A stretch of DNA of 64,000 nucleotides from an uncultured Pelagibacteraceae bacterium (lineage in GTDB: Bacteria > Pseudomonadota > Alphaproteobacteria > Pelagibacterales > Pelagibacteraceae): NCBI GenBank assembly GCA_902582235.1, contig CACHQX010000005.1, positions 1 through 64,000 of the forward strand. The letters are read 5' to 3'. The notes under the pieces are model-generated. The model was not told the origin of the DNA, did no database searches, and saw nothing but the letters and a program-made list of their open reading frames with translations. A program made the translations under genes and the position numbers. Positions 36,415 through 61,321 of the stretch are shown here, in pieces. Numbering within the stretch: the first letter of the stretch is position 1; each line of letters opens with the position of its first letter.

Positions 36415-37679
36415 TTTAAATTTAGAACTTCCCCAATTAAATAAAGTGATCCTGTAACTAAGGTAATAGTGTTAATATCCTTTGAGTTTGAATGAATTGC
36501 ACCATCGATACTATCTGAAATTTTTAACTTAAAATTGAGATTGCTTATCTTTTCTTTAAATTCATTTTTAGAAATCCCTCCATCCTGATTAGGAATATCA
36601 ATTAAAGTAACTGAATTAACTAGACCCTCAAAAGATTTCATAAATTTTTGATGTTCCTTATCTTTCATCATAGCTACAACGAGATTAACTTTTTGATTTT
36701 GGTTTTTAATCCAGTTTGCAATAACATAACTGCTTGAAATATTATGGCCACCATCAACTACCAATCTATTATTACCTGCAATTTTTTTGAGCTTTCCTGA
36801 CTTAATTTCCTGCAACCTTCCTCTAAGAGAGATATTTTGAATACCTGATTTGATATCTTGATCTTTAACATTAAATATTTTTCTAGACGCTGCAATTGAA
36901 GTACTAATATTATAAAGTTGATGGTCCCCTAGAATATTGGGTTCTGGTAATATCAATTCACCAATATCATCTTGATATTGAATGAAGCTATTATCTGATC
37001 TTGAAATATTGAAGTTTTTTCTAAAAAAATATTTATTTGAAGTATTTTGATTTAAAGATTCTTCCACTTTTTTACCTATCTCATCATTCACCTGTTTGTT
37101 TACAAAAATATTAGAGTTTAAAAGCTTACAAGTTTTTTCATGTATAACTCCATCAATACTCTTATTTTTTAACCATTGAAAATGATCGTTATGTATCACG
37201 CCAATCAATGTCATTAAATTTTTTTTAAAAACATTGGTACTATCGAATTGATGAAATAATCCAGCCTCAATAATATTAATATTATCTTTAAAGCTTTCTG
37301 CATATTTTAAAAAAGCACATGTGAGTATTTCGAATACAGTCGCATTATCATCCCCTAAGACTTTTTCTGTTTCCTCTAACAATTTAAAAAGATTTTCTTC
37401 ATCAATTTCAGTATCATTAAATACAAAACGTTCAGTATAGGATTGAAGATGAGGAGAGGTATACATATTACACTTTAATCCAGCATGATTAAGGATTGCC
37501 TTTAAACTGTATGACATACTTGCCTTAGCATTTGTTCCCACTACAGTAACTATATTGTTAAGTTTGTCTTGAGGGTTTCCAAGTTTTTTTAAAAGATTAA
37601 AAGTTCGACCTAGGGATAGGTCTAATTTCTTTTTATGATGCTTCTCTAGTTCCGATACTAAATTCTGGAGTTTGTTCAT
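36411..37679 (-). CDS. folC: Dihydrofolate/folylpolyglutamate synthase
   Basis: FolC adds glutamate to dihydropteroate or folates. The 422-residue product has an N-terminal LDLSLGRTFNLLKKLGNP near residue 20 and the P-loop GTNAKASMSYSL near 49 (usually GTNGKGS). TSPHLQSYTERF is near 75 and the Mur-ligase-type C-terminal VVDGGHNISSSY near 310. Its start lies 47 bp inside accD. I keep it because this N-terminus matches the family. Confidence 0.9.
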   Translation of the reverse strand: MNKLQNLVSELEKHHKKKLDLSLGRTFNLLKKLGNPQDKLNNIVTVVGTNAKASMSYSLKAILNHAGLKCNMYTSPHLQSYTERFVFNDTEIDEENLFKLLEETEKVLGDDNATVFEILTCAFLKYAESFKDNINIIEAGLFHQFDSTNVFKKNLMTLIGVIHNDHFQWLKNKSIDGVIHEKTCKLLNSNIFVNKQVNDEIGKKVEESLNQNTSNKYFFRKNFNISRSDNSFIQYQDDIGELILPEPNILGDHQLYNISTSIAASRKIFNVKDQDIKSGIQNISLRGRLQEIKSGKLKKIAGNNRLVVDGGHNISSSYVIANWIKNQNQKVNLVVAMMKDKEHQKFMKSFEGLVNSVTLIDIPNQDGGISKNEFKEKISNLNFKLKISDSIDGAIHSNSKDINTITLVTGSLYLIGEVLNLN

Positions 37680-38565
37680 TATTCTCTGAATTTACTTCAG
37701 AATTTTTCTTTAGCAACATAGATAATACCTGACCAATTTTTTTGGATAAATCTTTACGAGGTATAATGTTATCTACAAATCCACATTCAAGAACATGCTC
37801 AGCTTTTTGAAAATTTTCAGGCAATTCTTCTTTTACTGTTCCTTCTATAACTCTTCTTCCTGCAAATGCAATCAAGGCTCCAGGCTCAGATATTTGAATG
37901 TCCCCAAGCATCGCAAAAGAAGCAGTGATCCCTCCAGCAGTTGGATCTGTTAGACACACTATGTAAGGTAATTTATTTTCTTTTAAATCATTAATGGCCA
38001 TAGTTGTTCTCGTCATTTGTGCAAGGGCTAGGGGACTTTCATGCATTCTCTGACCACCACCACAAGTAAAAATCACAAAAGGTTTTTTTTCTTTAACAGC
38101 TTTTTGAATACCGAAAATAATTGCTTCACCTTCACTTGTTGCTATTGAACCACCCATGAAAGCAAAGTTGATTGCACCGACTATCACATCTATATTCTCA
38201 ACCTTACCTTTGGCGATCATAACTGCACAATCTTGATTTGTTTTTTTTCTCGCGGAATTTAACTTCTTAATATATGGAGAAGAATCTTCAAATTCTAAAG
38301 GATCATCCGCAGGTATGGGAGTTTTTAATATTTCATAATTATTTTTTCCAAAAAAAAGATCAAATCTTTGAATAGGACTGATTCTAAAATGTTTTCCACA
38401 CGGACCTGGACATACCCATAAATTTTCTTCCAGATCTTTTTTTAAAATTGGGCCTTTGCAGCAAGATGCCCAATCACTATTTTCTATATCACTCTTTGAT
38501 GGTCTTTTTTTTAATAACTGCTTAATCTTTTCACCAAATCTAAGAGTTTTTTTTAACCAATTCAT
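37633..38565 (-). CDS. accD: Acetyl-CoA carboxylase carboxyltransferase beta subunit
   Basis: AccD and AccA together transfer carboxyl from biotin to acetyl-CoA. The 310-residue product has the carboxyltransferase core GEAIIFGIQKAVKEKKPFVI, then FTCGGGQRMHESPLALAQM near 170 and PTAGGITASFAMLGD near 210. The N-terminal zinc ribbon is unusual: the first pair reads CCKG rather than CxxC, and the second reads CPGPC, a CxxxC. It overlaps trpA by 4 bp and folC by 47 bp. Confidence 0.9.
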   Translation of the reverse strand: MNWLKKTLRFGEKIKQLLKKRPSKSDIENSDWASCCKGPILKKDLEENLWVCPGPCGKHFRISPIQRFDLFFGKNNYEILKTPIPADDPLEFEDSSPYIKKLNSARKKTNQDCAVMIAKGKVENIDVIVGAINFAFMGGSIATSEGEAIIFGIQKAVKEKKPFVIFTCGGGQRMHESPLALAQMTRTTMAINDLKENKLPYIVCLTDPTAGGITASFAMLGDIQISEPGALIAFAGRRVIEGTVKEELPENFQKAEHVLECGFVDNIIPRKDLSKKIGQVLSMLLKKNSEVNSENNEQTPEFSIGTREAS

Positions 38566-60094: not shown

Positions 60095-60200
60095 AATTAA
60101 AAATTATCTTAGAAATTAATAAATTAACATATATAATAATTACACACTAATAAAAGTAATCATTTTGTTGCCATTTTTAAATATTAGTGGATATTTAATT

Positions 60201-61301
60201 ATGAAAAATTATTTGAATTTTGAAAAAGATATAAAATCCCTAGAAAACGAGATTGAAAAACTTCAAGATCCATTTGCTAAAGATGGTATCACACAAGTTG
60301 AAACTGGAAAATTGGCAAAACTTCAGAATGATTTGAGTTCTAAACTCAATGAAATTTATTCAAATCTTGATCCATGGCAGACAACAATGGTCGCTCGTCA
60401 TGAGGACCGCCCTAAATCAAAATTTTTTATTGATAATCTTTTTGAGGATTTCTTTCCAATTCATGGCGATAGGTTATTTGGGGAGGATAAATCTTTGATT
60501 TCTGGATTAGCGACTTTTCGAAATAAATCTGTAATGGTAATTGGACAAGAAAAAGGTGAGGATCTTGACACTAGAATTGAAAGAAATTTTGGAATGATGA
60601 AACCTGAAGGGTATCGAAAATCAATAAGACTAATGAAGCTAGCTGATAAATTTAACTTACCGATTATTTTATTTATAGATACTCCTGGCGCTTATCCTGG
60701 AGTTGGAGCAGAGGAGAGAGGTCAAGCTGAAGCAATAGCAAGATCAATAGAATGCTCAATGTCGGTTGGTGTGCCTACAATTTCAATTATTATTGGCGAG
60801 GGAGGATCTGGTGGTGCAATAGCTTTAGCCTCCTCAAATAAAATTATAATGTTAGAAAATGCAATTTATTCAGTAATATCCCCAGAGGGATGTGCATCTA
60901 TTTTATGGAGAGATCCAACAAAAACTCTAGAAGCCGCAAAAGCAATGAAACTAACTTCTAGAGATCTTTTGAATTTAAAAATTATTGATGAAATAATTCC
61001 TGAACCAACGGGAGGAGCTCACAGAGATAAAAACCTTATTTTAGAAAATGTAAAGGTCTCTATTGATAAAAATTTAAATGAGTTAAGCAATCTTTCTAAA
61101 GCTGAAATTATATCTCTTAAAAAAGAAAAATTTTTAAAAATCGGTAGGGATAGAGGTTTAACAGAGGGAGTTGCTATTTCTAGTAGATTGCCAATTAATT
61201 TTACAAATATAAATAAATTTAAAAAAGTTTTATTCAAATACAAATATTTTTTTATAGGATCGATATTTATTTTAGCAGCTTTAATTTTTCTCTTAAAATA
61301 A
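60201..61301 (+). CDS. accA: Acetyl-CoA carboxylase carboxyltransferase alpha subunit with C-terminal membrane helix
   Basis: The 366-residue product starts at MKNYLNFEKDIKSLENEIEK. It has the carboxyltransferase core: MVARHEDRPKSKFFIDNLFE near 75, FIDTPGAYPGVGAEERGQAE near 160, GEGGSGGAIALASSNKIIM near 200, and CASILWRDPTKTLEAA near 240. The usual end (KFLKIGRDRGL) is reached near 325. About 45 extra residues follow and close with a hydrophobic helix YFFIGSIFILAALIFLL. Common AccA proteins are about 320 residues, so the tail is an added putative membrane anchor. Confidence 0.92.
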   Translation: MKNYLNFEKDIKSLENEIEKLQDPFAKDGITQVETGKLAKLQNDLSSKLNEIYSNLDPWQTTMVARHEDRPKSKFFIDNLFEDFFPIHGDRLFGEDKSLISGLATFRNKSVMVIGQEKGEDLDTRIERNFGMMKPEGYRKSIRLMKLADKFNLPIILFIDTPGAYPGVGAEERGQAEAIARSIECSMSVGVPTISIIIGEGGSGGAIALASSNKIIMLENAIYSVISPEGCASILWRDPTKTLEAAKAMKLTSRDLLNLKIIDEIIPEPTGGAHRDKNLILENVKVSIDKNLNELSNLSKAEIISLKKEKFLKIGRDRGLTEGVAISSRLPINFTNINKFKKVLFKYKYFFIGSIFILAALIFLLK

Positions 61302-61321
61302 TACTGAAGCTTATTGGAATT

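Follow-up and report, generated by a model that had tools for sequence, protein, structure and literature searches.

Why does AccA, a subunit of acetyl-CoA carboxylase (ACC), an enzyme usually regarded as soluble in bacteria, finish in a hydrophobic helix? This question is raised by accA, coding for the carboxyltransferase alpha subunit, in a 64,000-nucleotide stretch (the window) from an uncultured Pelagibacteraceae bacterium of the order Pelagibacterales, or SAR11 (GenBank assembly GCA_902582235.1, contig CACHQX010000005.1, positions 1 to 64,000). By computation, we found AccA to be extended by a C-terminal tail with a transmembrane (TM)-like helix at 174 of 175 Pelagibacterales loci, covering all 10 genera sampled, and within our sample the tail was restricted to this order. 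The tail is probably a C-tail anchor, oriented with its N terminus inside, that would permanently dock the carboxyltransferase on the inner membrane. ACC carries out the committed step of fatty-acid synthesis. SAR11 bacteria are among the most abundant cell groups of the ocean and their genomes are strongly reduced; an order-wide addition of 50 residues therefore points to a real function.

Judged from its sequence, the window AccA is ordinary up to residue ∼316 and then continues for 50 extra residues. The protein gave a full-length match to PF03255 (ACCA) over residues 4-315 (439.5 bits; cut-off, 23) and matched TIGR00513 over residues 2-316 (391.8 bits; cut-off, 319.3), and the match to NF004344 likewise ended at residue 316. 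The start is the ATG at 60201, opening the sequence MKNYLNFE, which was invariant in 35 aligned sequences. When a structure model of AccA alone was submitted to Foldseek, the best matches were AccA chains (9a4k_B, 8uz2_A, 2f9i_C, 5kdr_A, and 2f9y_A). An end at about residue 316-325 is typical of the AccA family but not defining, and the window protein, with 366 amino acids (aa), runs past it. The first-pass annotation had already described an added C-terminal hydrophobic helix, which our analysis confirmed (residues 350-365), and had placed the normal end near residue 325, followed by about 40 residues. The extension itself stood, but the core ends at 316 and the tail comprises about 50 residues; the count of 325 fits an upstream TTG (60165) as the start. 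The gene and its parts are as follows.

60201..61301, + strand: accA, acetyl-CoA carboxylase carboxyltransferase alpha; 366 aa, with stop; matches to PF03255/TIGR00513, start conserved.
60201..61148, + strand: canonical AccA core, residues 1-316; PF03255 at 4-315, TIGR00513 at 2-316; model similar to E. coli and S. aureus AccA structures.
61149-61298, + strand: AccA tail, residues 317-366, beyond the family-profile end; stop at 61299-61301.
61149..61202, + strand: putative flexible linker, residues 317-334; predicted local distance difference test score (pLDDT) <50 at 319-334; omega (the ratio of nonsynonymous to synonymous substitution rates) of 0.345 for 317-345.
61203..61247, + strand: basic pre-membrane helix or flank, residues 335-349; model helix at 335-346; positive flank in 141/144 tails.
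61248..61295, + strand: hydrophobic core of the predicted C-terminal membrane helix, residues 350-365; highest hydrophobicity; model helix at 348-365.

The most hydrophobic segment of the tail (residues 350-365) stops one residue short of the C terminus, and the hydrophobic helix as a whole measures 16-18 residues. In the model, residues 351-366 formed a block with pLDDT 82-85, and the linker before it was predicted to be disordered. Five open reading frames (ORFs) of at least 150 aa in the window had a hydropathy of at least 1.9 in their last 45 residues, namely, AccA and four multi-segment ORFs, a group that may include membrane proteins and shadow frames.

A TM-like helix closed AccA at 136/136 loci in the first set, at 20/20 loci from other genera, and at 18/19 further loci. 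These 175 loci include repeats (the window twice, some genomes present in two collections, and G130 repeated). AccA was matched in 91/101 genomes of the genus and in 189/197 genomes of the order, where 194 genomes gave any match and 5 weak ones (E about 1e-9) were left uncounted; no match was obtained in 10/101 genus and 3/197 order genomes. Most rows of the genus and order searches beyond the listed loci were judged from match coordinates only, and in one genome (G092) AccA was cut off by the contig end. Absence of the tail from all relatives, which had been named beforehand as one outcome that would overturn the finding, is thus not what we observed.

For tail statistics, we used the 144 distinct proteins from 156 of the loci (the first 136 and the 20 from other genera). 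Their tails were 45-57 residues long, and the maximum of the 19-residue Kyte-Doolittle hydropathy ranged from 1.65 to 3.54, reaching at least 1.6 in 144/144; the 19-residue hydrophobic window ended 0-7 residues before the C terminus, again in 144/144. In 141/144 tails, the 12 residues preceding this window carried a net positive charge. An insertion sum, i.e., the biological hydrophobicity summed over segments of 16-21 residues, was below 0 in 143/144 tails versus 0/144 cores.

A lost stop codon, followed by neutral read-through into AT-rich DNA that encodes a hydrophobic end by chance, might also generate such a tail in a single genome. When tail residues were shuffled, 771/7200 sequences reached 1.6 in their last 27 residues; random DNA resembling the window yielded 854 open 50-codon frames from 40,000, of which 62 passed the same threshold. 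One hydrophobic end is, by this measure, unremarkable. However, its recurrence in 144/144 related tails with a median identity of 23% is beyond chance, and maintenance over 10 genera with an omega of 0.39 for the whole tail makes neutral read-through very improbable and supports the tail as a genuine part of the protein. Presence of the tail at 174/175 loci also rejects an artefact in the window itself, be it a frameshift or read-through, the latter being the other overturning outcome named beforehand.

Selection on the tail appears to act on its properties rather than its letters, since median pairwise identity was 0.23 in the tail versus 0.73 in the core (54-sequence subset), yet tail omega remained at 0.39. 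Estimated from 8 close relatives (28 nonindependent pairs), omega was 0.057 in the core, 0.345 in the linker (residues 317-345), and 0.473 in the helix region. The tail thus seems to be constrained in kind and more loosely than the core, with hydrophobicity, position, and basic flank retained.

What kind of element would be conserved in this way? In their anatomy, the tails correspond to C-tail anchors: all 144 distinct proteins had one TM-like helix at the extreme C terminus, and none of the 144 cores showed a further TM segment in the cytoplasmic part by the insertion sum (0/144 below 0). Orientation, read solely from the basic N-flank (141/144), would be with the N terminus inside. FtsH recognizes nonpolar C termini, and the tail could instead be chiefly a degradation signal that delivers AccA to this membrane protease, setting ACC levels and fatty-acid flux. 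E. coli AccA is indeed under proteolytic control, by a protease that the authors term unknown (PMC12977641). Nevertheless, a TM-length helix with linker and basic flank, 45-57 residues in all, exceeds what a short degron needs, and we regard a mere degron as unlikely. It is quite unlikely that the helix stays out of the bilayer and packs on AccA, AccD, or another protein for assembly or oligomerization. Higher-order assemblies of ACC do exist (8uz2, a helical reconstruction from E. coli), and a model of AccA alone could miss a partner site; but the helix is hydrophobic throughout, its hydrophobic moment is low (median, 0.10), the model shows the linker as disordered, and the letters of the helix are poorly conserved, unlike those of a specific protein interface.

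Several observations weigh against a membrane anchor. In one draft genome of the same genus (G044; L356/L376; C6:19300-21600), the AccA frame ends at residue 344 through a frameshift in the tail and the in-frame helix is lost; a different frame encodes a hydrophobic stretch shortly after the stop, and the frameshift may be an assembly error. One distinct tail (L180) reached +0.14 on the insertion sum. The hydrophobic core in the window is short (16 residues), and the structure model is of moderate confidence overall (mean pLDDT, 74.4; predicted template modeling score, 0.70). Relaxed constraint in the linker and helix region (omega of 0.345 and 0.473) would be compatible with a role of lower specificity as well. 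With the threshold at 1.6, a simple Kyte-Doolittle count marked a second segment, inside the AccA core, and this threshold alone is therefore no proof of a TM helix. Finally, no anchor was present in the AccB, AccC, AccD, FabD, FabG, AcpP, FabF, and PlsX proteins inspected. For AccD, this covered the whole window protein and, in relatives, the last 60 residues of the ORF (one a fragment); the other ACC and fatty-acid synthesis proteins were taken from at most three genomes (G000, G012, and G122; names verified, one copy each), with FabF inspected in G122 only and PlsX in G012 and G122. The source genome (G000), a draft of 995,137 bases in 26 contigs that is about 88% complete and has one AccA, yielded no plsX, whereas both relatives searched have this gene.

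Docking of the alpha subunit has precedents. The plant alpha subunit has no predicted TM helix and docks on the inner envelope via a C-terminal extension and CTI adaptors, which attenuates the enzyme (PMC7712654). The Arabidopsis plastid CTI1-3 system resembles the proposed SAR11 arrangement in that carboxyltransferase alpha is tied to the membrane through a noncatalytic C-terminal extension. It differs in that the adaptor is a protein of its own, with one TM helix and a coiled coil, whereas the SAR11 helix is built into AccA, and the plant extension (bait residues 420-769) is far longer than the 50-residue SAR11 tail. The E. coli case is that of YhcB, an inner-membrane protein that may sequester AccA and whose binding to AccA was detected in early stationary phase only (PMC12977641). 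Here, too, AccA is acted on from the inner membrane, but YhcB and AccA are separate proteins. For the anchor type, one study describes TssL, an E. coli C-tail-anchored protein inserted by YidC, and cites only 11 predicted C-tail-anchored proteins for E. coli K12 (PMC3426401). TssL shares with SAR11 AccA the single TM helix at the extreme C terminus following a cytoplasmic domain; TssL is part of a secretion system, whereas the cargo in SAR11 would be an enzyme of central metabolism, and the homologues of AccA sampled elsewhere do not have the helix. In the open-access literature, outside which most subscription papers lie, we found no report of a membrane helix in SAR11 AccA. The enzyme, the anchor type, and the idea of alpha-subunit docking are known; new is their combination, apparently fixed in an order.

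The YhcB family (PF06295) was detected in 0/12 Pelagibacterales genomes with a positive E. coli control, in a search that did not extend to CTI homologues or other adaptors. This result, the C-tail-anchor anatomy, and the CTI and YhcB precedents together favor permanent, adaptor-free docking via AccA. We envisage that the catalytic core of AccA folds in the cytoplasm and that its ∼18-residue linker and basic helix are followed by the single hydrophobic helix, which would enter the inner membrane post-translationally in an N-in/C-out orientation, leaving few residues outside; YidC is the probable route of insertion. AccA pairs with AccD, and the resulting carboxyltransferase receives carboxybiotin from the biotin carboxyl carrier protein, so that the whole ACC would be held on the cytoplasmic face of the inner membrane. 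Located at the very subunit end that plastid CTI uses, the anchor would represent a built-in, permanent counterpart of that adaptor, and it would resemble YhcB.

We expect such an anchor to set the location and amount of active ACC, whether through docking, sequestration, or turnover; a shorter diffusion path for malonyl-CoA would matter less. As a purpose, proximity to lipid synthesis is no more likely than regulation or turnover. Of the earlier proposal, the membrane-tethered carboxyltransferase gained support from the order-wide TM-like helix and its basic N-flank. Placement of malonyl-CoA production near lipid synthesis did not and stays conjectural; it is weakened because malonyl-CoA is soluble, the ACC and fatty-acid synthesis proteins inspected lack an anchor, SAR11 cells are so small that diffusion should hardly be limiting, and the docked cases known so far show attenuation or possible sequestration of the enzyme instead of a boosted supply. 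Taken with the plant CTI and E. coli YhcB cases, the SAR11 tail points to AccA as a site of repeated docking, through which ACC is placed or restrained at membranes. On balance, we lean toward viewing the ACC of Pelagibacterales, permanently docked by a TM helix added to AccA, as a third, adaptor-free solution beside CTI and YhcB, which would suggest AccA docking as a general control point of fatty-acid synthesis.

Where did the tail come from? A TM helix at the AccA C terminus was found at 0/145 loci elsewhere in the phylum of SAR11, to which this sample was confined (0/30, 0/56 informative of 60 loci, and 0/59), and the highest 19-residue hydropathy near the AccA end was 0.95 (L239). The sample comprised the 60 best-scoring loci, 59 genomes picked for long open frames, in which a tail would be expected, and 26 class members, mostly small or low scoring. 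Rows L213 and L214 (incomplete), L215 (a duplicate of the L206 gene), and L216 (not AccA) were dropped. Among the matches listed, unfetched genomes with open frames of <345 aa were judged by frame length only; 27 further genomes from one such listing were followed up separately. A scan of IMG/VR returned one partial AccA, which matched over residues 1-189 only and was uninformative. Within this sample, the tail appears confined to Pelagibacterales, and the simplest history would be a single gain at the base of the order.

In the window, accA and secA converge tail to tail, 20 bases apart (61302-61321); the neighbors SecA and malate synthase G were confirmed by name check. Convergent order of accA and secA was observed in 6/7 Pelagibacterales stretches (not in G136) and also in an outgroup of the same class, G310. 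Since G310 shares this arrangement and its AccA has no tail, the tail probably arose at a pre-existing junction. Fusion with a neighboring gene was considered as its source, and no donor gene was found, in an inquiry that was not taken further. Between glcB and accA (window positions 60095-60200), no glycine riboswitch reached the Rfam gathering threshold; for "Ca. P. ubique," one report places a glycine riboswitch in the 249-base glcB-accA gap (PMC2704228).

The window AccD (37633-38565, - strand) displays an unusual cysteine pattern in the motif that we take to be its zinc ribbon, with adjacent first cysteines (SCCKGP) and a second pair in CPGPC. TIGR00515 scored below its cut-off in 11/12 genomes (one with a fragment only) and also in 6/12 matching control genomes. 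The f2 relatives retain CxxC...CxxC, and three other Pelagibacter show CC...CxxC.
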